Shown piece by piece: positions 1,234-53,854 of a stretch of 64,000 nt of DNA; position 1 is the stretch's first letter, and the number at the start of each line of letters is the position of its first letter. The translations under genes were made by a program, and so were the position numbers. A model generated the notes under the pieces. That model was not told where the DNA came from. It did not search any database and saw only the letters and a program-made list of their open reading frames with translations. Origin of the DNA: Azotobacter beijerinckii (GTDB taxonomy: Bacteria; Pseudomonadota; Gammaproteobacteria; Pseudomonadales; Pseudomonadaceae); contig NZ_FOFJ01000001.1 of NCBI RefSeq assembly GCF_900110885.1, forward strand, positions 1 to 64,000, read 5' to 3'.

Positions 1234-1338
1234 GAACAATACCTTGCAGGTTCAGAAAGAATTCAACCGATGCCTGCAATGCGCATCTGCAGGCACTCCA
1301 TGCTGTCGGGCTTTATACCAGAAGCTCGATCCGCAACG

Positions 1339-1361
1339 AAAAAACGCGGCCGAAGCCGCGT
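1339..1361 (-). terminator. Rho-independent terminator after ilvC
   Basis: On the minus strand a 7-bp stem ACGCGGC/GCCGCGT with a TTCG tetraloop is followed directly by a run of Ts. It is 22 bp past the ilvC stop and upstream of pssA. Confidence 0.85.
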
Positions 1362-1383
1362 CTTTTCGTTTCGCCTTTCGACC

Positions 1384-2930
<1,547 letters not shown>

Positions 2931-5829: not shown

Positions 5830-6560
5830 CACAGATTGACCCGCGCCCGTTCGCGGGCCTGGGCCGCACCGGCCGCATCCCCCTGACGCTCGCGCGCCTG
5901 GGCGATCAGGTTCCACAGACTGCCCTGCAAGGCCGGGCGACCGCTGGCGTAGGTCAAGGCACGCCGCGCCAGTTGCTCGGCCTGGGCGGCATCGCCTTGG
6001 GCCAGGCGCACCTCGGCCAAGCGGTAGAGCACCTGCGGCTCGCGCGGAGCGATGCGCTGCGCTCGCTCCAGGCTGGAGGCGGCGCTTTCCAGATTGCCGC
6101 CGCCCTGTTCCCGCTGCGCAGTGGTCAGCAGCGCCAGAACCGGACCATCGAGCTGCTCGTCGGCGGCCAAGCTGCCCGAGGCGGCGGCGCTCCTGCTCGC
6201 AACGCCGCTCGGCACGCTGGGCACGGAGTAGCCCGTGCTGCCGCCAGATGTGGCGGCGATCGGCGGCGAAACGATCGGCGCCACGCTGCCCGCAGTGCCC
6301 GCCGACGGGTAAGCCCGGATCGGCGCCCCATTGGCGCTCCCGCCGGGCACCATCACCACCACCCCGGAATCCTGGGCGGAGGCCGGCGCCTGGGGGGCCA
6401 CCGCTACCGGGGGACGGGAAACCGCAGCACTGCCACGCCCCTCCTGCCGGTCATAAACCGAGCCGCTCGCATCGACCACCGGGATCGAGCCACGCTCGAC
6501 CGTCGCACAACCGCTCAGCAGCGCACTGGCCGCCACTGCACCCATCAACCACCTGTTCAC
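5829..6560 (-). CDS. TPR-repeat lipoprotein
   Basis: 243-aa predicted lipoprotein: signal peptide with lipobox LLSGC (Cys18), a long low-complexity Ser/Gly/Pro/Ala linker (about 25-130), then a C-terminal tetratricopeptide region (about 135-240) with repeats such as LESAASSLERAQRIAPREP. It lies between mrcB and the yqcC-like gene, 16 bp after the mrcB stop, which suggests an envelope or peptidoglycan-synthesis role, though that is inference. The GTG start has GAGGG 7 nt upstream. The equivalent P. aeruginosa gene sits at the same place. Confidence 0.8.
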   Translation of the reverse strand: MNRWLMGAVAASALLSGCATVERGSIPVVDASGSVYDRQEGRGSAAVSRPPVAVAPQAPASAQDSGVVVMVPGGSANGAPIRAYPSAGTAGSVAPIVSPPIAATSGGSTGYSVPSVPSGVASRSAAASGSLAADEQLDGPVLALLTTAQREQGGGNLESAASSLERAQRIAPREPQVLYRLAEVRLAQGDAAQAEQLARRALTYASGRPALQGSLWNLIAQARERQGDAAGAAQARERARVNL

Positions 6561-6576
6561 CTAGCGCCCTCTTTGC

Positions 6577-8922
6577 TCAATTCGACCAGTCGCGCACCCA
6601 ATCCATGACATCCTGAACGTTCTCGATCACATCCTGCACATTCCCGACAGGGGCCTGCTGAGGCAGGCCACAAGCGCCCCCCGGCGGCGGCTCGCTACCT
6701 CGAATATAGGGCATCTGCACCGCCGATGGACAACCCTGCTCGGAGCCCTGCCCGCTGCGCGCGTCCACCCAGGCCAGGGTGATGTTGTCCGGTACCGGCA
6801 TGTCCAGCGGCAGCGGATTGGCCTTGACCATGAAGTCGGTCCAGACCCGCAGGGCGCCGGTCGCACCGGTCAGAGGCGTCTTGCCGTTGTCGTCGCGCCC
6901 CAGCCAGACCACCGCCAGCAGATCCTGGCTGAAGCCGGCGAACCAGCTGTCGCGCGAATCGTTGGTGGTGCCGGTCTTGCCGGCCAGATTCAGCGAGCGC
7001 GGCAACTGGTTGTAGACCGAGCGAGCAGTTCCCTCGCGCATCACCCGCTGCATGGCATTCTGCAGCAGATAGATGGCCCCCGGATCGAAGCGCTGCTGGA
7101 TCTGGAACGGATAGCGCTTGAGCGGCTCGCCATTGGCAGCCAGGACGCTGCGAATGCCCCGCAGCGGCGTGTTGAAGCCACCGCTGGCGATGGTCAGGTA
7201 CATACTGGACACCTCCATCGGAGTCAGCGCCCCGGCCCCCAGCAACATCGACGGGTAGGCCGGCCACTCGCGGTCGACGCCCAGACGCGCCAGCGTCTTC
7301 AACACGTTCGGCACACCCAGCTCGAGACCGAGCTTGGCGGTCGACAGGTTGTAGGAGTTGACCAGCCCCTGATAGAGATAGATGTCGCCATGGGCCTGGT
7401 GGTCGTAGTTCTCCGGCCGCCAGACCTGACCATCTTGCCCCTTCACCGAGAAGGGCACATCCGCCAGCCAGCTGGTCAGGGTGTACTGACCGGGCCGCTC
7501 CAGCGCGGTGAGATAGATCGCCGGCTTGATCAGCGAACCGATCGGCCGCACCGCATCCAACGCCCGGTTGAAGCCCGCGAAGCGCGGCTGCCGGCTGCCG
7601 AGCAGGGCCAGCACCTCGCCGGTCTCCGGGTTGCTCACCACCATCGACGCCTCGACCGGATCGCCCCCCTTGCCGATGCGCTTGAAGGTGTCGTGCACCG
7701 CGGCCTCAGCCTTGTTCTGCAGAATCGGGTCGAAACTGGTGAAGATGCGCAGCCCTTCCTCGGTGAGGTCGGCCTCCTGGTAATCCTCGCGCAACTGGCG
7801 CTTGACCAGATCGAGGAACGCCGGATGGGAACTGTTGGCCAGGCTGCCGCGACTGGTAACGCCGAGCGGCTTCTGCTTGGCGGCGGCGGCCTGCTCGGCA
7901 TCGATCACCCCCTGCTCGGCCAGCAGGTCGAGCACCAGATTGCGCCGCGTCAGGGCCCGTTCGGGGTTGCGCCGCGGGTTGTAGTAGGTGGGCCCCTTGA
8001 CCATGCCTACCAGCAGGGCAACCTGATGCAGCTGGAGTTCAGCCAGCGGCTGGCCGAAGAAATACTGGCTGGCCAGGCCGAAGCCGTGTACCGCGCGATT
8101 GCCGTCCTGCCCCAGGAACACCTCGTTGAGATAAGCCTCGAGAATCTCGTCCTTGTCGTAGTGCAGCTCCAGCAGCACGGCCATCATGGCCTCGGTGGCC
8201 TTGCGCACCAGACTGCGCTCGTTGCTCAGATAGAAGTTCTTCACCAGCTGCTGAGTCAGCGTACTGCCGCCCTGGACCACCCCGCCCGCCGCGGCATTGA
8301 CCCACAGGGCGCGGGCGATGGATTTCGGCGACACCCCGAAATGGCTGAAGAACTCGCGGTCCTCCACCGCCACCAGGGTTTCCACCAGATAGGGCGGCAG
8401 CTCGTTGCGCTGGACCAGGATGCGATCCTCGTTGTGCGCCGGATACAGGCCGCCGATCAGCAGCGGCTCCATCCGCACGACGGCCAGATCGCCACCGTCG
8501 GCACCGCTCAGCCCGGCGACGTAGTCGCCGGAGAAACGCACGCGGATCGCCCGGGCCGGCTCATCGCCCTCGTAGAAACGGAAACCGCGGGTATGCAGCT
8601 CGACGGTATTGCCGGACACGGCAGCCGAGCCGGGCCCGGCGACGGCCTCGCGGCGGTAGCCCAGGGCATCCAGCTCGGTGAGGAAGTCCTGCTTCGACAA
8701 CTTGAGGCCGGAGAACAGCTCCAGCGGCCGGGCATAGACCTTGGCCGGGAGCGTCCAGCGCTTGCCGGAGAATTTCTCCTGCACCACGGCATCGAGATAG
8801 ACGGCAAAACCAGCCAGCACCACCAGACCGACCAGAGAGAGCTTGACGGTCCAACCTAGCCAGGAACGGAGTGCGCCGAAGCGGCGGGAAGAGCGCGATT
8901 GAGGGGAGCGGGTACGTGTCAT
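6577..8922 (-). CDS. mrcB: Penicillin-binding protein 1B (transglycosylase/transpeptidase)
   Basis: Class A PBP that polymerises lipid II and cross-links peptidoglycan in the periplasm, anchored by one N-terminal membrane helix (about residues 23-45). The 781-aa protein has a UB2H-like domain, the glycosyltransferase motif EDREFFSHFG and downstream GGSTLTQQ. The transpeptidase triad is SxxK in SLIKP, SYN in NSYNLS, and KTGTTN near the C-terminus. The start is MTRTRSPQ with a basic cytoplasmic tail. It heads the mrcB-lipoprotein-YqcC cluster and has a very close -10 element (see 8931-8936). Confidence 0.95.
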   Translation of the reverse strand: MTRTRSPQSRSSRRFGALRSWLGWTVKLSLVGLVVLAGFAVYLDAVVQEKFSGKRWTLPAKVYARPLELFSGLKLSKQDFLTELDALGYRREAVAGPGSAAVSGNTVELHTRGFRFYEGDEPARAIRVRFSGDYVAGLSGADGGDLAVVRMEPLLIGGLYPAHNEDRILVQRNELPPYLVETLVAVEDREFFSHFGVSPKSIARALWVNAAAGGVVQGGSTLTQQLVKNFYLSNERSLVRKATEAMMAVLLELHYDKDEILEAYLNEVFLGQDGNRAVHGFGLASQYFFGQPLAELQLHQVALLVGMVKGPTYYNPRRNPERALTRRNLVLDLLAEQGVIDAEQAAAAKQKPLGVTSRGSLANSSHPAFLDLVKRQLREDYQEADLTEEGLRIFTSFDPILQNKAEAAVHDTFKRIGKGGDPVEASMVVSNPETGEVLALLGSRQPRFAGFNRALDAVRPIGSLIKPAIYLTALERPGQYTLTSWLADVPFSVKGQDGQVWRPENYDHQAHGDIYLYQGLVNSYNLSTAKLGLELGVPNVLKTLARLGVDREWPAYPSMLLGAGALTPMEVSSMYLTIASGGFNTPLRGIRSVLAANGEPLKRYPFQIQQRFDPGAIYLLQNAMQRVMREGTARSVYNQLPRSLNLAGKTGTTNDSRDSWFAGFSQDLLAVVWLGRDDNGKTPLTGATGALRVWTDFMVKANPLPLDMPVPDNITLAWVDARSGQGSEQGCPSAVQMPYIRGSEPPPGGACGLPQQAPVGNVQDVIENVQDVMDWVRDWSN

Positions 8923-8930
8923 GGCGGCGC

Positions 8931-8936
8931 ATTATA
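8931..8936 (-). promoter_or_regulatory. Candidate -10 element abutting the mrcB start
   Basis: On the minus strand TATAAT lies only 8 nt before the mrcB ATG (TATAAT-GCGCCGCC-ATG). If used, transcription would start 1-3 nt from the ATG and give a leaderless mRNA. No convincing -35 is visible. The smpB start has almost the same arrangement. Confidence 0.4.
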
Positions 8937-9038
8937 CGCACTTTGCCCACCCTCGATAGCGCAGCCCAGCGGTTTGCAGGGGCGGCACCAGCGGCCATAA
9001 TGCGAGCCTTCGCCCAGACTTCCCAGCAAGGACTGACC

Positions 9039-10601
9039 GTGAGCCAAGCCCTGATCAACGCCCTGCAGAACCCCGCGCTCTACCCGCACGCGGTGACTGA
9101 GTTCAAGGTCATCGAGACCCACATTTCCTGGGTCCTGCTCACCGGCCCCTACGCCTACAAGTTCAAGAAGGCCGTCGACTTCGGCTTCCTCGACTTCACC
9201 GGACTGGCGGCGCGCAAGCACTTCTGCGAGGAGGAAGTGCGCCTGAACCAGCGCCTGACCCAGGACCTCTACCTGGACGTGTTGCCGATCACCGGCAGCG
9301 AGAGCGCGCCGCAGCTGGCCGGCGAAGGTCCGATCATCGAATACGCGGTGAAGATGCGCCAGTTCCCGCAGAGCCAGTTGCTCGGCGAGATCCAGATCCG
9401 CGGCGAGCTCGCCCCCGAACATATCGATGCCCTGGCCGAACGGATCGCCCGCTTCCACCTGCACGCGCCGAAGGTGCCGGCGGACCATCCGCTGGGCAGC
9501 GCGGAGGCGGTAATGAGCCCGGTGCGGCAGAACTTCGAGCAGATCCGCCCGCTGCTCGCCGAACCGGCCGACCTGCAGCAACTCGATACCCTCGAGGCCT
9601 GGGCGGAAACCAGCTTCGAACGTCTGCGGCCGCTGCTCGAACAACGCAAGGCGGACGGCTTCATCCGCGAATGCCATGGCGACCTGCATCTCGGCAACGC
9701 CACCCTGCTCGACGGCCAGGTCGTACTGTTCGACTGCATCGAGTTCAACGAGCCGTTCCGCCTGATCGACGTCATGTGCGATGCCGCCTTCCTCGCCATG
9801 GACCTGGAGGATCGTGGCCTCAAGGGACTTTCCCGACGCTTCGTCAGCGCCTGGCTGGAGCTGACCGGCGACTACGCCGCCCTGCCGCTGCTGAACTTCT
9901 ACAAGGCCTACCGCGCCATGGTGCGCGGCAAGGTCAACCTGTTCCGCCTGGCGCAGGAGGTGAGCGCCGAGCAGCGTGTCGCCATTCTCCAGCTGTACCG
10001 CAACTACGCCAGCCTGGCGGAGCGCTACAGCGCCATTCCCTCGTGCTTTCTGGCCATCACCCACGGGGTTTCCGCGGTCGGCAAGAGCCATGTCGCCCAG
10101 CGCCTGACCGAAGAATTCGGCGCCATCCGCCTGCGATCGGACGTCGAGCGCAAGCGCCTGTTCGGCGAGCAGCAGGCCCCCGAGCGGGACCGGCTGGCGA
10201 GCGGCATCTACAGTGCACAGGCCAGCGAGGCGACCTACGCGCACCTGCACCGACTGGCCGCCGGTGCCTTGCAGGCCGGCTTTCCGGTGGTGATCGACGC
10301 CACCTACCTGAAGCAGGCCCAGCGCACGGCCGCCTGGCAGGTCGCCGAGGAGCATGGCGTGCCCTTCCTGATCGTCGACTGCCAGGCGCCCGAAGCGTTG
10401 ATCGCCGAATGGCTCGCCGAACGCCAGGCCGAAGGAAAGGACCCCTCCGACGCCACGCTGGAGGTGGTCCGGGCGCAGCAGGCCAGTCGCGAGCCCTTGA
10501 CCGAGGCCGAACAGCAGCGCAGCCGGCGAGTCGACACCCACCTCGCCACCAGCCTCGACGAACTGGTCGCGCGCATGCGCAAGAGCCTCCCCGGCCTGTA
10601 A
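9039..10601 (+). CDS. Aminoglycoside phosphotransferase-like / P-loop kinase fusion protein
   Basis: 520-aa cytoplasmic two-domain protein of unknown substrate. Residues about 20-320 have the kinase-like fold of the APH family: HGDLHLGN with catalytic Asp215, and FDCIEFNEPF carrying the metal-binding Asp. Residues about 338-520 form an AAA/gluconokinase-like ATPase with Walker A GVSAVGKS (343-350) and then RSDVERKR. The GTG start (VSQALINAL) was chosen because AAGGA lies 7 nt upstream and homologues begin there. It stands alone, divergent from mrcB, and ends at a strong terminator. Confidence 0.85.
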   Translation: MSQALINALQNPALYPHAVTEFKVIETHISWVLLTGPYAYKFKKAVDFGFLDFTGLAARKHFCEEEVRLNQRLTQDLYLDVLPITGSESAPQLAGEGPIIEYAVKMRQFPQSQLLGEIQIRGELAPEHIDALAERIARFHLHAPKVPADHPLGSAEAVMSPVRQNFEQIRPLLAEPADLQQLDTLEAWAETSFERLRPLLEQRKADGFIRECHGDLHLGNATLLDGQVVLFDCIEFNEPFRLIDVMCDAAFLAMDLEDRGLKGLSRRFVSAWLELTGDYAALPLLNFYKAYRAMVRGKVNLFRLAQEVSAEQRVAILQLYRNYASLAERYSAIPSCFLAITHGVSAVGKSHVAQRLTEEFGAIRLRSDVERKRLFGEQQAPERDRLASGIYSAQASEATYAHLHRLAAGALQAGFPVVIDATYLKQAQRTAAWQVAEEHGVPFLIVDCQAPEALIAEWLAERQAEGKDPSDATLEVVRAQQASREPLTEAEQQRSRRVDTHLATSLDELVARMRKSLPGL

Positions 10602-10617
10602 GCCCCCTCCCCCACCG

Positions 10618-10646
10618 AAAGAAGGCGCCCACGGGGCGCCTTCTTT
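10618..10646 (+). terminator. Terminator after the kinase fusion gene
   Basis: A perfect 13-bp inverted repeat (AAAGAAGGCGCCC / GGGCGCCTTCTTT) with an ACG loop. The stem itself ends in Ts, as in a rho-independent terminator. It may also work leftward. Confidence 0.85.
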
Positions 10647-10694
10647 CTCTTGGCGCTCGAAGAAGCCAGCAAACAAAAAAGTCACAAACAGTGC

Positions 10695-10722
10695 TTGACC
10701 AATAAATGAGAAGCGTTATTTT
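10695..10722 (+). promoter_or_regulatory. Fur box and promoter of the PrrF-like sRNA
   Basis: ATAAATGAGAAGCGTTATT at 10702-10720 matches the 19-bp Fur consensus at about 13 positions, including the ATGAGAA core and TTAT. It overlaps a promoter with -35 TTGACC (10695-10700) and -10 TATTTT (10717-10722), 16 bp apart. Iron-bound Fur here would block the sRNA, so it should be made when iron is scarce. Confidence 0.75.
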
Positions 10723-10728
10723 TTGAAA

Positions 10729-10833
10729 ACTGATCGCGAGATCAGCGGTAAACTGACAGAGCGGCTACTCTTCAGGTTATCTCCTCATCAGGCTAATTAC
10801 GGTTTTCGACCCGGCTCTGCCGGGTCTTTTTTT
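10729..10833 (+). ncRNA. prrF: Iron-responsive sRNA of the PrrF/ArrF family
   Basis: A ~105-nt RNA recognised by its conserved core CTCCTCATCAGGCTAAT (about 10779-10797) and terminal stem GACCCGGC-TCT-GCCGGGTC followed by seven Ts. In P. aeruginosa PrrF1/2 (and ArrF in Azotobacter) repress iron-rich and iron-storage proteins during iron starvation through this core, with Hfq. The locus matches: P. aeruginosa prrF1-prrF2 lie next to phuW, as here. Only one copy is present. The last ~37 nt are antisense to the 3' end of phuW. The exact 5' end is inferred from the promoter. Confidence 0.85.
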
Positions 10834-11723
10834 GCCTGCGCGTCGGCGGCCCGCATCGCGGCACAGTAGTCGCGGGCCGGCGTTGCCGGGGTGTACCAGA
10901 CATAGTCGGCGGCCTCCGCCCCCACCGCCTCCCCGGCCTCGGCGAGCAGCAGCACGACGCTTCCGGCTGCCCCGCCGAGATCGGCCAGATGCAGGGGCAC
11001 GCCCAGGTCGCGCCGTACATGGTAGGCGCCGGCCAGCAGCAGGGTCGGCTGCGGCGCGGCCAGCAGGCGTTCGGCCATGCGCCGGTCGCGCTGCTGCTGA
11101 ACGGCGAGCATCGCCGGCCACTGGGACTCCGGCAGTTGACCGCAGTGGGAAGCGCCGATCTGCGCGAGCAGAACCTCGCGCACCCGCGCGCCGCTCGAGG
11201 CGGCGCCGGACAACGCCGGCCGCTCGGCATAGACGCGGCGGACCTCCAGCCTATCCAGATTGGCCGCCAGGAGCGGATAGGGCTGCGCCAGCGCGTGGCG
11301 CAGCAGCGGCTCGTACAGCGCCCAGTCCCACCCCTGGCGCCAGGCCAGGGCCACCGGCAGATCCGCTGGCACCTGGCCCGCGGCGAACGCGGCCTGGGTT
11401 GCCGCCACCCGGGCCTGCTGATCCGGCTCAAGCATCTCCAGCAGCAGACTGCCCTGCGCCCGCCGTCCGGCCAACGCCTCGAGCAGCCACAGCTCGAGGG
11501 CATGATGATCGGGGTTGTCGTGCTTCTCGCCGACCAGTAGCCGCGGCGCCGCCGCTAGCCGCTCGACCAGTTGTGCCGGCGTCAGGCTCGCGCCGCTGCG
11601 CAGGTCGCGGATGGTGCCGGGTTCGACACCCTGCCGTCCCCCGCTGGCCTGCCAGGCGGGCAACGGCGGCAGTGTCTGGCAGGCGGCCAGCAATACCAAG
11701 CAGACGAACAGCAATGAGCGCAT
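10797..11723 (-). CDS. phuW: ChaN-family haem-associated lipoprotein (PhuW-like)
   Basis: 308-aa predicted lipoprotein: signal peptide with lipobox LLAAC (Cys15) and a ChaN domain (about 45-280) including LLVGEKHDNPDHH, the conserved His-containing motif. ChaN-like proteins of other bacteria bind haem and are iron-regulated. PhuW closes the P. aeruginosa haem operon, and here too it follows the phuV ATPase by 11 bp. The start MRSLLF has an AGGAGG 6 nt upstream. Its 3' end overlaps the convergent PrrF-like sRNA. Confidence 0.85.
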   Translation of the reverse strand: MRSLLFVCLVLLAACQTLPPLPAWQASGGRQGVEPGTIRDLRSGASLTPAQLVERLAAAPRLLVGEKHDNPDHHALELWLLEALAGRRAQGSLLLEMLEPDQQARVAATQAAFAAGQVPADLPVALAWRQGWDWALYEPLLRHALAQPYPLLAANLDRLEVRRVYAERPALSGAASSGARVREVLLAQIGASHCGQLPESQWPAMLAVQQQRDRRMAERLLAAPQPTLLLAGAYHVRRDLGVPLHLADLGGAAGSVVLLLAEAGEAVGAEAADYVWYTPATPARDYCAAMRAADAQAKKDPAEPGRKP

Positions 11724-11734
11724 GAATATCCTCC

Positions 11735-12502
11735 TCAGCGCGCCACGATCAGCGGATGCCCCCGCTCCGGGTGGCGCTGTACCAGCACCTCGAGACCGAA
11801 AACCGCCTTCAGCGGCCCGGGAAGCAGGACCTCCTCGGGACTGCCGAGCGCCTGCACGCGACCGTCGGCCAGCAGCAGCAGGCGGTCGCAATAACGCGCC
11901 GCCAGGTTCAGGTCGTGGAGTATCGCCAGCACCGCCGTGCCGTGTCCGGCGAACGCCCGCACCGCCTGCAGGATACTGTGCTGGTGCAGGGGGTCGAGCA
12001 TCGAGGTCGGCTCGTCGAGCAATAGCACCTGCTGCGCCCCACCCGGCCAGAGCTGCGCCAGCACCCGCGCCAGATGGACCCGCTGGCGCTCGCCGCCGGA
12101 CAGGGTCAGGTAGCTGCGCCCCCTCAGGTGCGTGGCGTCCGCCGCCGCCAGTGCTCGGGCGACGATCTCGGCATCGCGCCGCCGGCCGCTGGCATGAGGC
12201 AGACGACCGAAGCCGACCACCTCCTCGACGCGAAAGGCGAACTCCAGCACCGGACTCTGCGGCAGCACCGCCAGCCGGCGCGCCCGTTCAGGCCCCCGCC
12301 AGTCGGCCAGCGGCCGGCCATCCAGGCGGACCTGGCCCTCCGCCGGGCGCAGCTCGCCGGACAGCGCCGCCAGCAGCGAGGACTTGCCCGCCCCGTTCGG
12401 CCCCAGCACGCCGAGCAGCTCGCCGGGCCGCAGCTCCAGGTCGATACCGCTCAACACCTGACGGCCGCCGCGCTGCACGGCCAGTTGCTCGGCCTGCAGC
12501 AT
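11735..12502 (-). CDS. phuV: Haemin ABC transporter ATP-binding protein
   Basis: 255-aa ABC ATPase of the HmuV/PhuV type that would energise haem import across the inner membrane with PhuU. Walker A is GPNGAGKS (34-41), signature LSGGERQ, and Walker B LLLDEPTS followed by a switch His in [23 protein letters not shown] is typical of HmuV. The start MLQAEQLAV overlaps the stop of the permease gene (ATGA), so the two are coupled. The periplasmic haem-binding protein that normally completes this transporter is not encoded nearby. Confidence 0.9.
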
Positions 12503-13545
12503 CAGAGCGGCTCCCGGCGCAGCAGCCAGAGGAAAAAGGGCGCACCGAGCAGCGCCGTGACGATACCGAGCGGCAGCTCGGCCGGGGCCAGCAGCAGGCG
12601 CGCCAGCAGATCGGCGAACAGCAGCAGGCTGGCGCCGGCGAGCATGGCAGCCGGCAGCAGCAGTCGATGATCCGGCCCGCAGAGCAGGCGCAGCAGATGC
12701 GGCACCAGCAGGCCGACGAAGCCGACCAGCCCTGCCGCGGCCACTGCCGCACCGACGCCCAACGCCGTGCAGAACACCAGCTCGCGTTTCAGCCGCTCCA
12801 CCTCGAAGCCCAGATGGCGTGCCTCCGATTCGCCCAGCAACAGGGCGTTCAGCGCCCCGGCACGACGCGGCAGCCAGAGCGCCACGCCAAGGGTCGCCAG
12901 CAGCAGCGGCCAGAGCCGGGCGTAGCTGGCGCCGCTCAGGCTGCCGAGGTTCCAGAAAGTCAGCCGGCGCAGCGCGGCATCGTCGGCCAGATAGCCGAAC
13001 AGGCCGATCGCCGCCCCCGCCAGAGCGCTGAGGGCAAGTCCGGCGAGCAGCATGGTGGCCACCCGGGTCTGGCCGTCGCGCCGCCCCAGCCGGTAGACCA
13101 GCGCGGTCACCGCCAGACCACCGGCGAAGGCGCTCGCCGACAGCAGAGTGGGCGACGCCTCGGGCGGCACTCCAGCGCCGAGCAGCGAACCGCCGACGAT
13201 CGCCAGCGCCGCGCCTAGCGCCGCACCGCTGGACACCCCGATCAGTCCGGGATCGGCGAGCGGGTTGCGGAACAGGGCCTGCATCGCCACCCCGCTCAGG
13301 GCCAGCACGCTGCCCACCGCCAGGCCGAGCAAGGCCCGCGGCAGACGGATCTGCCCGACGATCAGCTCGGCCTGCTCGAGCCCTGCCCCGGACAGCGGCA
13401 CGCCGGCCAGGCGCAGCAGGGCCAGCAGGGAGTCGACCAAGGGCAGCCGCAGCGGCCCCAGCGCCAGCGACAGCCAGAAGGCGAGCAGCAGCAACAGGCT
13501 CAGGGCGATCAGCAGGACACGGGGGCGGCGGACGAAGGCGCTCAT
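12502..13545 (-). CDS. phuU: Haemin ABC transporter permease (FecCD family)
   Basis: 347-aa inner-membrane permease with about ten hydrophobic segments and the FecCD/BtuC signature [28 protein letters not shown] (given here as a region, about residues 95-125). It pairs with PhuV to carry haem; the ATPase type makes haem the more likely substrate than cobalamin or a siderophore. Start MSAFVRRPR, with a GATCCC-poor but usable site. It is the first gene of a phuU-phuV-phuW group and is divergent from the Rieske gene, in the place where phuT, phuS and phuR would be expected. Confidence 0.85.
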
Positions 13546-13663
13546 GAAGGGATCTGGCGGCAACGGTGGCGGCAAGGATAAGAGGCGGCCCGGCCAATCG
13601 CCAGCGCACGGCTTCCGCCGCCGCCTGCCGGCGTGGATAATCCCGGGCTTTTCGGGAGGCGCC

Positions 13664-13981
13664 ATGCAGTTTCTCTGTAGCGGGAACGACCTCGGCGAAG
13701 GACAAAGCCGCGGCTTCCGGCTGGAAGGGCGGAAACTCCTCGCGGTCCGCCGGGACGGTCGGGTCTTCGTCTACCTCAACCGCTGCCCGCACCGCGGCAT
13801 TCCGCTGGAGTGGCAGGCCGACCAGTTCCTCGACCCCAGCGGCAGCCTGATCCAGTGCGCCACCCACGGCGCGCTGTTTCTCATTGACGACGGCGAATGC
13901 GTGGCCGGCCCCTGTGCCGGGCAGCACCTGCCGCGCATCGACTGCCGCGAGGACGCCGCCGGCATCTGGGTGCGGCTGTAA
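13664..13981 (+). CDS. Rieske [2Fe-2S] ferredoxin-like protein
   Basis: 105-aa single-domain Rieske protein with both cluster motifs: CPHRG (about residues 42-46) and CATHGALF (about 66-73), which supply two Cys and two His. It is the size of stand-alone Rieske ferredoxins that pass electrons to oxygenases or serve in redox sensing, but no oxygenase is adjacent, so the partner is unknown. GGGAGG lies 7 nt before ATG. It is divergent from phuU and convergent with sfsA. Confidence 0.9.
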
Positions 13982-14707: not shown

Positions 14708-15872
14708 CGGGCCGCCAGCTCCTCAGACCCCGGGCGATGCGCTCGACCGCCTGCGCTAGGCGCGGCAGGCTCTGGGTATAGGCGAAGCGCACATGGCGAC
14801 CGGCCAGATGGCGACCGAAATCGATCCCCGGGGTGATCGCGACGAATTCGCTCTCCAGGAAGTGCCGACAGAAAGCGAAGGAGTCATCGCCGAAGGCGCC
14901 GATGTCGGCATACAGATAGAAGGCGCCCTCGGGCTCCACGGCAATCCTGAACCCTAACTCGCGCAACGCCGGCAGCAGGTAGTCGCGGCGCCGGGCGAAC
15001 TCCGCGCGACGCTCCTCGAGGATCGCCAGGGTCTCGTCCGAAAAGCAGGCCAGCGCGGCATACTGGGCCACCGTCGACGCACTGATGTAGAGGTTCTGCG
15101 CCAGCTTCTCCAGTTCGGGCACTGCCTCATCCGGCGCGACCAGCCAGCCGAGCCGCCAGCCGGTCATGCCGAAATACTTGGAAAAACTGTTGAGCACGAA
15201 GGCGTCGTCGTCCACCTCCAGCACACTGGAGGCGTCCATGCCGTAGGTCAGCCCGTGGTAGATCTCGTCGACCACCAGATGGCCGCCGCGCGCGCGCAGG
15301 GCAGCCGCCAGCGCTGCCAGCTCGTCGCGCCGCAGCAGCGTCCCGGTGGGATTGGCCGGCGAAGCGACCAGGGCGCCGACGCTTTCGGCCATCCAGTGCT
15401 GCGCCACTAGCTCCGGGGTCAGGTGATAGCGTTGCTCCGGACCCACCGGTACCAGCTGCGCGCCGCCCTCGACCAGGCGCAGGAAATGGCGGTTGCAGGG
15501 ATAGCCGGGGTCGGCCAGCAGCCAGTGCCGGCCCGGATCGACCAGCAGGCTCGCGGCCAGCAGCAGGGCGCCGGAGCCGCCGGGCGTGATCAGAATGCGC
15601 TCGGGGTCTATAGTCAAACGGTAACGTCGTGCATAGAAATGGGCGATGGCTTCGCGAAGCTGCGGCAGGCCGCGCGCGGCGGTGTAACGGGTATGTCCGG
15701 CTGCCAGTGCCGCCTGCCCTGCGACGACGATGGGCGTCGCCGTGGTGAAGTCCGGCTCGCCGATCTCCAGATGGATCACGTCGTGGCCCAGGGCCTGGAG
15801 CTGGTTGGCACGGGCCAGCAGGGCCATGACGTGAAAGGGTTCGATGGCACGGCTGCGCGCACTGTAGGACAT
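14697..15872 (-). CDS. PLP-dependent aminotransferase, class I/II
   Basis: 391-aa fold-type I aminotransferase. The PLP lysine is in [15 protein letters not shown] (about residues 236-250), and upstream are SPANPTG and VVDEIYHGL with the cofactor Asn and Asp/Tyr. Substrate is not predictable from sequence; close relatives are annotated as aspartate/tyrosine/aromatic or alanine aminotransferases. The start [13 protein letters not shown] was chosen by family N-termini. The same gene lies upstream of dksA in P. aeruginosa. Here it is divergent from dksA and overlaps sfsA. Confidence 0.88.
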
Positions 15873-16070
15873 GGCCACGGGCCTTCCTTCGAGACGGGGC
15901 GGAGGGCGGATTCTACCCCCACCGGACCGCTCTGGCAGCAGCCTTGGCAACGGAGAGTGGCGCAGCCCCATAGCTTCTGGTAAGTTCGGCCGCTTGCAGT
16001 CGCAGGGCCGACGGCGTCGGCAGGGAACAGTGCCTGCGTGTATGGATTAGAGAGAGCGAGGCGGTCATCC

Positions 16071-16511
16071 ATGCCCACCAAAGCAAAGCAGAACAACCAA
16101 CTGGTTCGCGGTTTCGAGCCCTACCCGGAAACTCCGGGCGAGGAATACATGAGCGACAACATGCGCGCTCACTTCGTCAATATCCTCAATAAATGGAAGC
16201 AGGAGTTGATGGAGGAGGTCGACCGTACCGTGCACCACATGCAGGACGAGGCCGCCAACTTCCCCGATCCCGCCGATCGGGCCAGCCAGGAAGAGGAGTT
16301 CAGTCTGGAACTGCGCGCCCGCGACCGCGAGCGCAAACTGATCAAGAAGATCGACGAAACCCTGCAACTGATTGAAGACAACGAGTACGGCTGGTGCGAC
16401 TCCTGCGGTGTGGAGATCGGCATCCGCCGCCTCGAAGCCCGCCCCACCGCCACCCTGTGCATCGACTGCAAGACCCTTGCGGAGATCAAGGAAAAGCAGA
16501 TCGGCGGCTGA
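16071..16511 (+). CDS. dksA: RNA polymerase-binding transcription factor DksA
   Basis: Binds the secondary channel of RNA polymerase and, with ppGpp, turns down rRNA promoters and activates amino-acid biosynthesis genes. The 146-aa protein has a coiled coil (about 30-108) with tip residues in DPADRA (Asp69, Ala71) and a C-terminal zinc finger using Cys109, Cys112, Cys130 and Cys133. Start MPTKAKQ by alignment; an in-frame upstream ATG lacks a ribosome site. The window also holds rRNA promoters, its classic targets. Confidence 0.97.
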   Translation: MPTKAKQNNQLVRGFEPYPETPGEEYMSDNMRAHFVNILNKWKQELMEEVDRTVHHMQDEAANFPDPADRASQEEEFSLELRARDRERKLIKKIDETLQLIEDNEYGWCDSCGVEIGIRRLEARPTATLCIDCKTLAEIKEKQIGG

Positions 16512-16520
16512 TCCGGTGTC

Positions 16521-16540
16521 CGGGGCGCCACGGCGCCCCG
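16521..16540. terminator. GC-rich hairpin between dksA and gluQ
   Basis: A perfect 9-bp inverted repeat CGGGGCGCC/GGCGCCCCG 9 bp after the dksA stop. No T run follows, so it is a possible attenuator or 3'-end stabiliser rather than a clear intrinsic terminator. Confidence 0.4.
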
Positions 16541-16602
16541 CGTCGCATCTGCAGCCCGGCCGGCTTCCGCCGCCCCGATCGGCAGCTCCTGCCGAGCGCC
16601 GC

Positions 16603-22311: not shown

Positions 22312-22682
22312 CACAACAACAATAACAAGACGCAGCACTCAGAATAAGAACGATTGACACGACTCTAGCCTTACAAAAACAACGACGCGGAGACGGGGCC
22401 AACCGATTTTTTTGGAGTAGATACTTTGCCCACCGGGCACAGCCCGCAGCCAGACCGAGAACAACAAAACTGCCCCCAGGCAGCACCCGAACTGGTGGGT
22501 CGGCACGACCCAGGCAACATCAGCGACCAAAGAAATCCGTTTGCTATTGGCTCCCCATTGGGGGCCATCCCGGAGCCCACGGGCCAACCGGGACGGGCAT
22601 ACGACAAGAACAACACGCCCGGAAACAGAACAAGAACAAAGAACGCACTTCGATTGGAAAGGGAGCCTCGGCTCCCTTTCTG
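22312..22682 (+). ncRNA. crcZ: CrcZ regulatory RNA (Hfq/Crc antagonist)
   Basis: A ~370-nt RNA between cbrB and pcnB, the conserved place of CrcZ. It carries at least five A-rich CA motifs of the AAnAAnAA type (about 22313-22330, 22341-22350, 22372-22384, 22458-22470, 22603-22616, 22622-22644). These bind Hfq/Crc and so lift catabolite repression of target mRNAs. No protein-coding frame makes sense here. The 3' end is a perfect 11-bp hairpin at 22657-22680. Ends are inferred from the promoter and hairpin; the P. aeruginosa form is ~400 nt. Confidence 0.88.
22657..22680 (+). terminator. CrcZ 3' terminator hairpin
   Basis: Perfect 11-bp inverted repeat GAAAGGGAGCC/GGCTCCCTTTC with a TC loop. 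The stem ends in TTTC but no longer T run follows, so termination may be partial and pcnB could be read through. Confidence 0.7.
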
Positions 22683-22793
22683 CGTTCGGCGGCTACTCCG
22701 GCTTCGTACATCCTTCGGCGCCGGTGCTAGAATCCGCAGCCATTCCGCGGTCAAGCTCATTCTGGCCGACCACTCCGTCAAGCAGTGACCCCG

Positions 22794-36199: not shown

Positions 36200-36469
36200 T
36201 TAGCGACGCAGCCCCAGGCGACCGATCAGGGCGCTGTAACGAGTGGTGTCCTTACCCTTCAGGTAGTCCAGCAGCTTGCGGCGCTGGTTGACCATGCGGA
36301 TCAGGCCACGACGGGAGTGGTGGTCCTTGCCGTTGGCCTTGAAGTGATCCTGCAGCTTGTTGATGTTGAAGGTCAGCAGGGCAACCTGCACTTCCGGGGA
36401 ACCGGTATCGCCTTCAGCTTGCTTGTACTCGTTGACGATCTGGGCTTTTTCTTCGACGCTCAGTGCCAT
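36200..36469 (-). CDS. rpsO: 30S ribosomal protein S15
   Basis: Primary 16S rRNA-binding protein of the small-subunit platform. The 89-aa all-helical protein has the S15 signature (about 39-69) including [26 protein letters not shown] lies 7 nt before the ATG. It lies between truB and pnp on the minus strand, as in most gammaproteobacteria. The leader is about 90 nt long. Confidence 0.97.
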
Positions 36470-36559
36470 GATGGGCTCCTAGAGTGAACAGGCCGGGACA
36501 TCTCCCGTGTTGAGTAGAAAAGGAATGACCGTGCCTGCCGACAGCCACCCTCGCATCGG

Positions 36560-52635: not shown

Positions 52636-53772
52636 TTAGCGGCGCTTGGCCATGGCTTCGATGAAGCGATCGAACAACGGAGCCACGTCGTGCGGGCCCG
52701 GGCTGGCTTCCGGATGGCCCTGGAAGCTGAAGGCGACCTTGTCGGTGCGCTCGATGCCCTGCAGCGTGCCGTCGAACAGTGACTTGTGGATCGGCCGCAG
52801 ATTGGCCGGCAGCGTGCTTTCGTCCACGGCGAAACCGTGGTTCTGGCTGGTGATCATCACTGCGCCAGTGTCGAGGTCCTGCACCGGGTGGTTGGCACCG
52901 TGGTGGCCGTGGCCCATCTTCACCGTCCTGGCACCGGAGGCCAGCGCCAGCAGCTGGTGACCGAGGCAGATGCCGAATACCGGGATGTCGGTCTCGAGGA
53001 TGTCCTTGATCGCCCGGATCGCGTAGTCGCATGGCTCGGGATCGCCGGGACCGTTGGAGAGGAACACCCCATCGGGATTCAGCGCCAGCACCTCGCTGGC
53101 CGGCGTCTGCGCCGGGACCACGGTCAGGCGGCAGCCACGCGCCACCAGCATGCGCAGGATGTTCAGCTTGACGCCGAAGTCGTAGGCCACCACGTGGTAG
53201 GTCAGTTTGCCGGCCGGAAGCTCCGGATGACTGTCGGTTTCCAGGTTCCACACGCTGGAGCGCCACTCGTAGCGCTCGGTGCAGCTGACCACCTTGGCCA
53301 GATCCATGCCCTTGAGACCGGGAAAGCTGCGTGCCAGCTCCAGTGCCTTTTCCTCGGTGGCATCGTCACCCACCAGGATGCAGCCGTTCTGCGAGCCCTT
53401 CTCGCGCAGGATGCGGGTCAGGCGGCGAGTATCGATGTCGGCGATGGCCACGCAGCCGTTTTCCTTGAGATAGTCCGGCAACGACTGCTTGTTGCGCCAG
53501 CTACTGGCCAGCAGCGGCAGGTCGCGGATGATCAGGCCGGCCGCCCATACACGAGAGGACTCGGCATCCTCCGGCGTGGTGCCGGTGTTGCCGATGTGCG
53601 GGTAGGTCAGGGTGACGATCTGCTGGGCATATGAAGGATCGGTGAGGATTTCCTGATAGCCGGTCATGGCGGTGTTGAACACCACCTCGCCGATGGTCAG
53701 ACCATCGGCGCCGATGGATTCGCCGCGAAAGATGCTGCCATCGGCAAGGGCGAGAATGGCTGGCTTAGTCAA
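52636..53772 (-). CDS. carA: Carbamoyl-phosphate synthase small subunit
   Basis: Glutamine amidotransferase subunit that feeds ammonia to CarB. The 378-aa protein has a CarA N-terminal domain and class I glutaminase domain with the nucleophile Cys in [12 protein letters not shown] (about 266-277) and the His/Glu of [11 protein letters not shown]. The start codon is TTG (TTG-ACT-AAG-CCA) with GGGAGG 6 nt upstream; P. aeruginosa carA is, as I recall, also started from an unusual codon. A terminator-like hairpin lies in its leader. Confidence 0.96.
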
Positions 53773-53822
53773 GAAGACCTCCCGTAAATCAAGCCTGAAA
53801 GGGCATACGCAGGTTGTAAAAA

Positions 53823-53854
53823 AGCGGAATGACGTGTAGACACATCATCCCGCT
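53823..53854 (-). terminator. Hairpin with T runs between dapB and carA
   Basis: Imperfect ~14-bp stem AGCGG-A-ATGA-C-GTG with its complement. On the minus strand a run of seven Ts follows, and on the plus strand TCTTTTT. It ends dapB transcription or acts as an attenuator 50 bp before carA. Confidence 0.75.

Follow-up and report, generated by a model that had tools for sequence, protein, structure and literature searches.

The locus described here lies in a 64,000-nt stretch of Azotobacter beijerinckii DNA, hereafter the window, and comprises a small RNA (sRNA) gene of the PrrF/ArrF family, a phuW-like gene converging on it, and haem-type ABC transporter genes (Table 1). Fur with iron represses ArrF-type sRNAs, iron shortage releases them, and their conserved core pairs with the mRNAs of iron proteins. 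An earlier reading of the letters alone, the sequence-only reading, had assigned the sRNA to this family, placed it beside phuW and named a covariance-model search as a check. That search accepts the gene: positions 10695-10834 of the plus strand match the Rfam model PrrF (RF00444) with 113.7 bits (gathering cut-off 90, E 2.6e-19) over all 150 model positions, the core TCTCCTCATCAGGCTAAT is exact, and the convergent minus-strand frame is indeed a 308-aa ChaN/PhuW ORF. The predicted RNA folds at -36.5 kcal/mol, which none of 200 shuffles equals. The proposed intrinsic terminator was also found, as a stem at 10808-10826 followed by T7, although shuffled sequences yield a mean of 0.5 terminators and this element alone is not significant. 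The gene at 10695-10833 is a member of RF00444 and orthologous to ArrF of A. vinelandii.

Table 1. Features of the sRNA locus and RsmZ-family genes of the plasmid-like contigs. Coordinates refer to the window unless a contig is named.
Feature	Coordinates	Strand	Basis
AAA/APH-type gene, upstream neighbour, start uncertain	8871..10601	+	domain match
14-bp palindromic hairpin	10617..10647	.	seen as repeat
Promoter-like site TTGACC-16-TATTTT	10695..10722	+	sole site in scan of 10550-10950; shuffles mean 0.0
Degenerate Fur box	10702..10720	+	12/19 to consensus; Azotobacter comparison
PrrF/ArrF sRNA, predicted transcript, ends inferred	10729..10833	+	RF00444, 113.7 bits; fold z -3.5
Family core TCTCCTCATCAGGCTAAT, presumed target-pairing region	10780..10797	+	letters verified, intact; exact match
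Overlap of sRNA 3' end and phuW 3' coding end, 37 nt	10797..10833	.	phuW stop codon at 10797-10799 (-)
phuW-like gene (ChaN, PF04187), 308 aa	10797..11723	-	PF04187, 145.2 bits
Intrinsic terminator, 8-bp stem + T7	10808..10833 (stem 10808-10826)	+	terminator scan
Haem-type ABC ATPase (phuV/hmuV)	11735..12502	-	NF010068, 344 bits (cut-off 261)
FecCD permease (phuU-like), start uncertain	12502..13665	-	PF01032, 286.4 bits
RsmZ-family sRNA with GacA box	L117 (contig of the window genome) 1243-1386	-	RF00166
RsmZ-family sRNA with GacA box	L118 12666-12809	+	RF00166

The chromosomal gene was found in all four Azotobacter genomes (species-level), and the search for PrrF gave a match in 293 of the 298 family genomes. 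For ArrF of A. vinelandii, a review gives Fur repression and an action on phbR, and cites work on sodB and feSII (PMC7204398). That gene shares with ours the locus beside phuW, the sequence class and the 37-nt overlap; apart from the species, no difference matters. The chromosomal gene itself is known biology, adding only a species to a known family. Other Rfam matches in the window are CrcZ at 22313-22714 (234 bits), P31 at 53772-53853 (96.2 bits) and an S15 leader at 36413-36530 (46.6 bits).

The Fur box had been described as good, which our scores do not bear out. We compared the best 19-mer with a 19-bp Fur consensus and counted matching letters. The window promoter reaches 12/19, which is weak by consensus and not distinctive, since a score of at least 12 occurs at 11 places in the 64-kb window and in 324 of 5,000 letter shuffles of the 50-nt promoter. 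No site in the whole 64-kb window lies within three mismatches of the palindromic Fur consensus. The three other Azotobacter chromosomes score 12, 12 and 13; scores are 14-15 for ten PrrF copies of three other genera and 17 for the plasmid copies, two in number, described below. The window box sits at the position typical of the family, and its letters are nearly unchanged across the four Azotobacter chromosomes. Fur control of the chromosomal gene is plausible, judging from this position and the A. vinelandii literature and not from the motif alone.

Like PrrF1, PrrF2 and PrrH of P. aeruginosa, the window gene belongs to RF00444, has the core, a terminator and, at the family position, a candidate Fur box, and lies beside phuW. 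P. aeruginosa has two tandem copies plus PrrH, whereas the window locus has one copy and its genome gives no HemS/PhuS match. This lone copy had been regarded as a departure from the P. aeruginosa pattern. We examined 80 named phuW loci (L007-L086; A. vinelandii CA is L005/L007 of the locus set) and counted a PrrF as linked if it lay no more than about 1.5 kb from the phuW stop. PrrF is linked to phuW in 47 of them, always convergently, and no PrrF was found in the examined stretch of the other 33, a few of these stretches being short (L013, L065, L071). One copy is the usual state (43 of the 47 linked loci), and two occur in P. aeruginosa PA7, P. schmalbachii and two P. citronellolis. Two publications likewise associate the tandem pair chiefly with P. 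aeruginosa and place the two genes at separate sites in most other pseudomonads (PMC2851614, PMC4211561). Larger arrays than the known pair also occur, with four PrrF copies in tandem at G157 C1:5196144-5196914 and three at G173 C12:531239-531832.

The statement that the window locus cannot produce a PrrH-type dicistronic RNA stands, as only one copy is there and the tandem pair is absent. A domain search for HemS/PhuS gave no match in the four Azotobacter genomes, the window genome included, and found the protein in two of five other family genomes tested. In P. aeruginosa, the prrF locus is reportedly regulated by PhuS (PMC7948967). The lack of a HemS/PhuS match in the four Azotobacter genomes is in keeping with the lack of a PrrH-type RNA at the window locus. 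Of note, the window genome has haem-type ABC genes beside the sRNA, yet no HemS/PhuS match genome-wide.

The overlap of about 37 nt with the end of phuW was read correctly. It is also found in A. chroococcum DSM 2286 and A. vinelandii CA, whose phuW genes are the closest relatives of the window gene (86% and 83%, respectively), and it is lacking at the 45 remaining phuW-linked loci, where the nearest PrrF copy lies 9 to 947 nt away. Among the loci examined, the overlap is therefore confined to Azotobacter. Apart from the palindromic hairpin at 10617-10647, a terminator scan of 10550-10950 found none for phuW, so that phuW transcription could run in antisense through the sRNA from end to end. 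At the RNA level, the overlap may thus be far larger than the coding overlap, possibly taking in the entire sRNA. The hairpin itself is probably a two-way terminator of the upstream gene and could possibly also stop read-through from phuW. Such an arrangement might work as an antisense device, in which phuW mRNA pairs with the sRNA and titrates it, or in which convergent transcription interferes. The convergent orientation in 47 of 47 linked loci and the scan result fit this idea, but the geometry ranges from a 37-nt overlap to a 947-nt gap and is not conserved. Moreover, the overlap accompanies a longer phuW frame in Azotobacter (308 codons, against 286-301 in 16 other loci measured) and may be incidental. 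We consider a functional device of this kind quite improbable.

A single copy holds at the phuW locus but not in the genome. The genome-wide RF00444 search, proposed along with the claim, ruled out a lone PrrF gene: the window genome has two PrrF matches, the window copy being the higher-scoring, and the second is a full-length match of 84.0 bits at G000:C153:10094-10234. A. chroococcum has a corresponding gene at G001:C64:5899-6039 (84.2 bits), and the same search gave no second PrrF match in the two other Azotobacter genomes. Both twins score below the RF00444 cut-off of 90, as do some PrrF copies of other genera, and both are full-length with E about 1e-14. We have high confidence in what the chromosomal gene is and in the presence and surroundings of this twin.

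The contigs that carry the twin measure 18,077 nt in the window genome and 13,569 nt in A. chroococcum. Their common sequence is chiefly a 4.4-kb block at 95.4% identity and a 2.4-kb block at 95.8%, and the twin adjoins traD-mobA within a block common to both. Both encode a MobA/MobL relaxase, TraD, a resolvase and a ParA-type ATPase, and the replication proteins found among the scanned ORFs differ, with RepA_C on the contig of the window genome and Rep3 on that of A. chroococcum. In these draft assemblies, neither contig has ends that overlap exactly over 16-300 nt. From their gene content, we infer that the contigs are plasmids. The contig of the window genome (L117) also carries a SmaI-type restriction enzyme beside an N6/N4 DNA methylase (6318-7988) and, at 15432-16577, a reverse transcriptase (PF00078) preceded by two unmatched ORFs, which together with the restriction genes possibly serves defence.

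The nearest relatives of the twin are the four Azotobacter chromosomal copies (80-81% identity; the next is at 73%), which points to an origin in Azotobacter or its ancestor. A BLAST search of PLSDB with the plasmid copy returned no homologue. The window copy gave eight 27-nt matches there, all over the terminator, and no match among phages (INPHARED). With a longer query, the same BLAST mode reached RsmZ relatives down to 77% identity; a close plasmid-borne PrrF would probably have surfaced in PLSDB, and a distant one would not. The literature, as covered by titles and the openings of abstracts with few subscription journals included, yielded no report of a plasmid-borne PrrF/ArrF or of a plasmid-borne Azotobacter RsmZ.

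The twin differs from A. vinelandii ArrF in its core and its Fur box. The Fur box scores 17/19 on both contigs, and none of 5,000 shuffles does as well for the L117 copy. The core, TCGACTTATCAGGCTCAT, retains 14 of the 18 letters of the family core and thus has four changes. In a tally of 145 hits from the loci examined, representing 107 distinct sequences and enriched for high-scoring loci, TCTCCTCATCAGGCTAAT (18 nt) is exact in 99 distinct sequences, 17/18 in four and 16/18 in two; 14/18 occurs in the two plasmid copies alone. The PrrF profile behind our locus comparisons was drawn from 36 loci including both plasmid copies (the seed from L091, an incomplete locus, was empty), and their matches to it arise partly by construction; their Rfam scores are independent of that. 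A search for the plasmid core with up to three mismatches found matches in three of 398 family genomes, against none for a reversed-pattern control. Two of these are the plasmid contigs. The third, in G031 (L186), lies inside a 564-aa ORF, presumably a SulP-type transporter judging from its translation, and has no PrrF match up to E 0.5; we took it as a chance occurrence. The same genome, which belongs to another genus, also has a PrrF pair at C1:2554470-2555933 (L134, L146) with the core TCGTCTCATCAGGCTAAT (16/18), below the Rfam cut-off.

The altered core suggests a twin that has been either retargeted or left to decay. An accidentally captured relic with little or no function, whose core has escaped selection, would account for the four changes and for a weaker fold (z -2.1, with 7 of 200 shuffles as good) that leaves the core paired in the lowest-energy structure. 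The interrupted T tail of the terminator, TTTTCTTTT, and the score below the RF00444 cut-off point the same way. Between the two contigs, the twin shows no difference in its 107-nt transcript region and one in the 141-nt unit, but 15% of the 141-nt windows in the common segment have at most one difference, so that this conservation is not exceptional; the divergence of the two plasmids gives no significant sign of selection on the sRNA. On the other hand, decay should have cost the promoter as well, yet the Fur box exceeds the 12/19 of the chromosomal copy, and 140 of 141 letters from the -35 to the terminator are kept between contigs of two species. The Fur box in particular argues against plain decay. 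A decaying relic is a serious candidate, if still a doubtful one.

Alternatively, the plasmid copy might do the ordinary work of ArrF, adding gene dose to iron sparing with its core changes tolerated. The twin keeps TATCAGGCT and the architecture, and its core gives stronger predicted duplexes with sodB (-19.9) and sdhC (-19.2) than the chromosomal core does (-14.6 and -13.8). However, 46 of 500 shuffled targets for sodB and 65 for sdhC do as well, as do 25 and 38 of 250 other gene starts, respectively, and neither comparison is significant. In addition, the core hardly varies in the remainder of the sample. We regard this explanation as unlikely.

These energies come from a computation that paired both cores with the leaders of sodB, sdhC and three aconitase-type genes and took 250 gene starts of the same genome as the background for ranking; plasmid ORF starts were put through the same prediction. 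For the chromosomal core, acnB forms ten continuous pairs (-18.6, rank 39/250). For sodB, a reported target, 134 of the 250 background starts are as good. Since the method fails to single out sodB for the chromosomal sRNA, it has no power to judge the plasmid core, and we dropped the pairing predictions as evidence for or against retargeting. We tentatively favour an iron-controlled twin with an altered set of targets, a reading to which we give somewhat less than an even chance.

The same contigs also have a second sRNA of a host family. On each lies an RsmZ-family gene (RF00166) of 65.6 bits, above the cut-off of 44; the two copies are identical over 144 nt, a level shared by 17% of the 144-nt windows in this segment, and contain six GGA motifs, three of them ANGGA. 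A GacA box with one mismatch to the consensus lies 62 nt upstream of the model start. The RNA is probably a sponge for RsmA. RsmZ1-7 of A. vinelandii are in print (PMC4824345, PMC7366521), and the first of these papers reports that RsmZ RNAs bind RsmA, a repressor of algD and phbR, and that RsmA binds phbR mRNA. Multiple RsmZ genes are a habit of the genus, with 10, 8, 15 and 9 matches in the four Azotobacter genomes, a few of them below the cut-off.

Plasmid-borne RsmZ extends beyond these two contigs. Relatives occur in eight PLSDB records at E 0.01 or better, all from Azotobacter. Four of these plasmids were examined, three complete and one over 50 kb of its 76 kb, and they contain five RsmZ genes above the cut-off, each with a one-mismatch GacA box at the same distance; PrrF is absent from the same four sequences (50 kb of 76 kb for the one). 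Among 28 copies compared, the plasmid RsmZ is nearest to L200 (83%). This copy lies on G002 contig C1, at positions that agree with those on a 40,877-bp plasmid of A. salinestris.

Comparable cases have been described elsewhere. Salmonella RfrB (RyhB-2) is likewise the duplicate of a Fur-controlled sRNA, carried by an island peculiar to its species (PMC4211561); that island is chromosomal and the RNA family unrelated, whereas the Azotobacter twin lies on a plasmid-like contig. RsmQ also acts on the Gac-Rsm circuit of the host from a plasmid (PMC9928087), but it is a plasmid-encoded Rsm protein, whereas the Azotobacter contigs offer a sponge-type RNA and a PrrF-type RNA. Plasmid pNDM-HK also encodes sRNAs, described as novel (PMC5880898). 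Finally, PAGI-97B-type islands of P. aeruginosa bring mobile DNA together with prrF (PMC8373256, PMC12607901). There prrF is a reported insertion site for islands (PMC8373256), while on the Azotobacter contigs the PrrF copy is the cargo. The PrrF core also occurs in four IMG/VR viral contigs (L154-L157), beside phage tail and baseplate genes and in each case near the contig end.

The new element in our analysis is a core-altered ArrF relative together with an RsmZ gene on plasmid-like contigs. Our proposed account is that a relaxase-bearing Azotobacter plasmid lineage captured a diverged second ArrF copy from promoter to terminator. The captured copy would have kept its architecture and a near-perfect Fur box while its core was rewritten, and it would most likely be controlled by iron and act on a changed set of targets; an RsmZ-type sRNA, behind a GacA box on the same contigs, would be a probable RsmA sponge. 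In A. vinelandii, phbR is reportedly a point of action of both RsmA, which binds its mRNA, and ArrF, so the two plasmid RNAs could jointly affect storage polymer and encystment. A broader proposal, which we advance as speculation and consider improbable as it stands, is that this Azotobacter plasmid group carries host regulatory RNAs as cargo: a GacA-read RsmZ sponge and, in one lineage, a Fur-read ArrF relative with a rewritten core. Such cargo could push the host to storage polymer and encystment under iron shortage and thereby aid persistence of the plasmid.

It is already known that plasmid proteins such as RsmQ enter host regulation and that plasmids encode sRNAs. The plasmid copy described here, with its better Fur box and altered core and beside a second RNA of host type, appears to be a global iron sRNA that has been transferred in nature to a plasmid with a relaxase, and it hints at a plasmid tapping the control circuits of its host. 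If this is true, two host sRNA families copied together with their Fur and GacA sites would represent a further route by which a plasmid steers its host.
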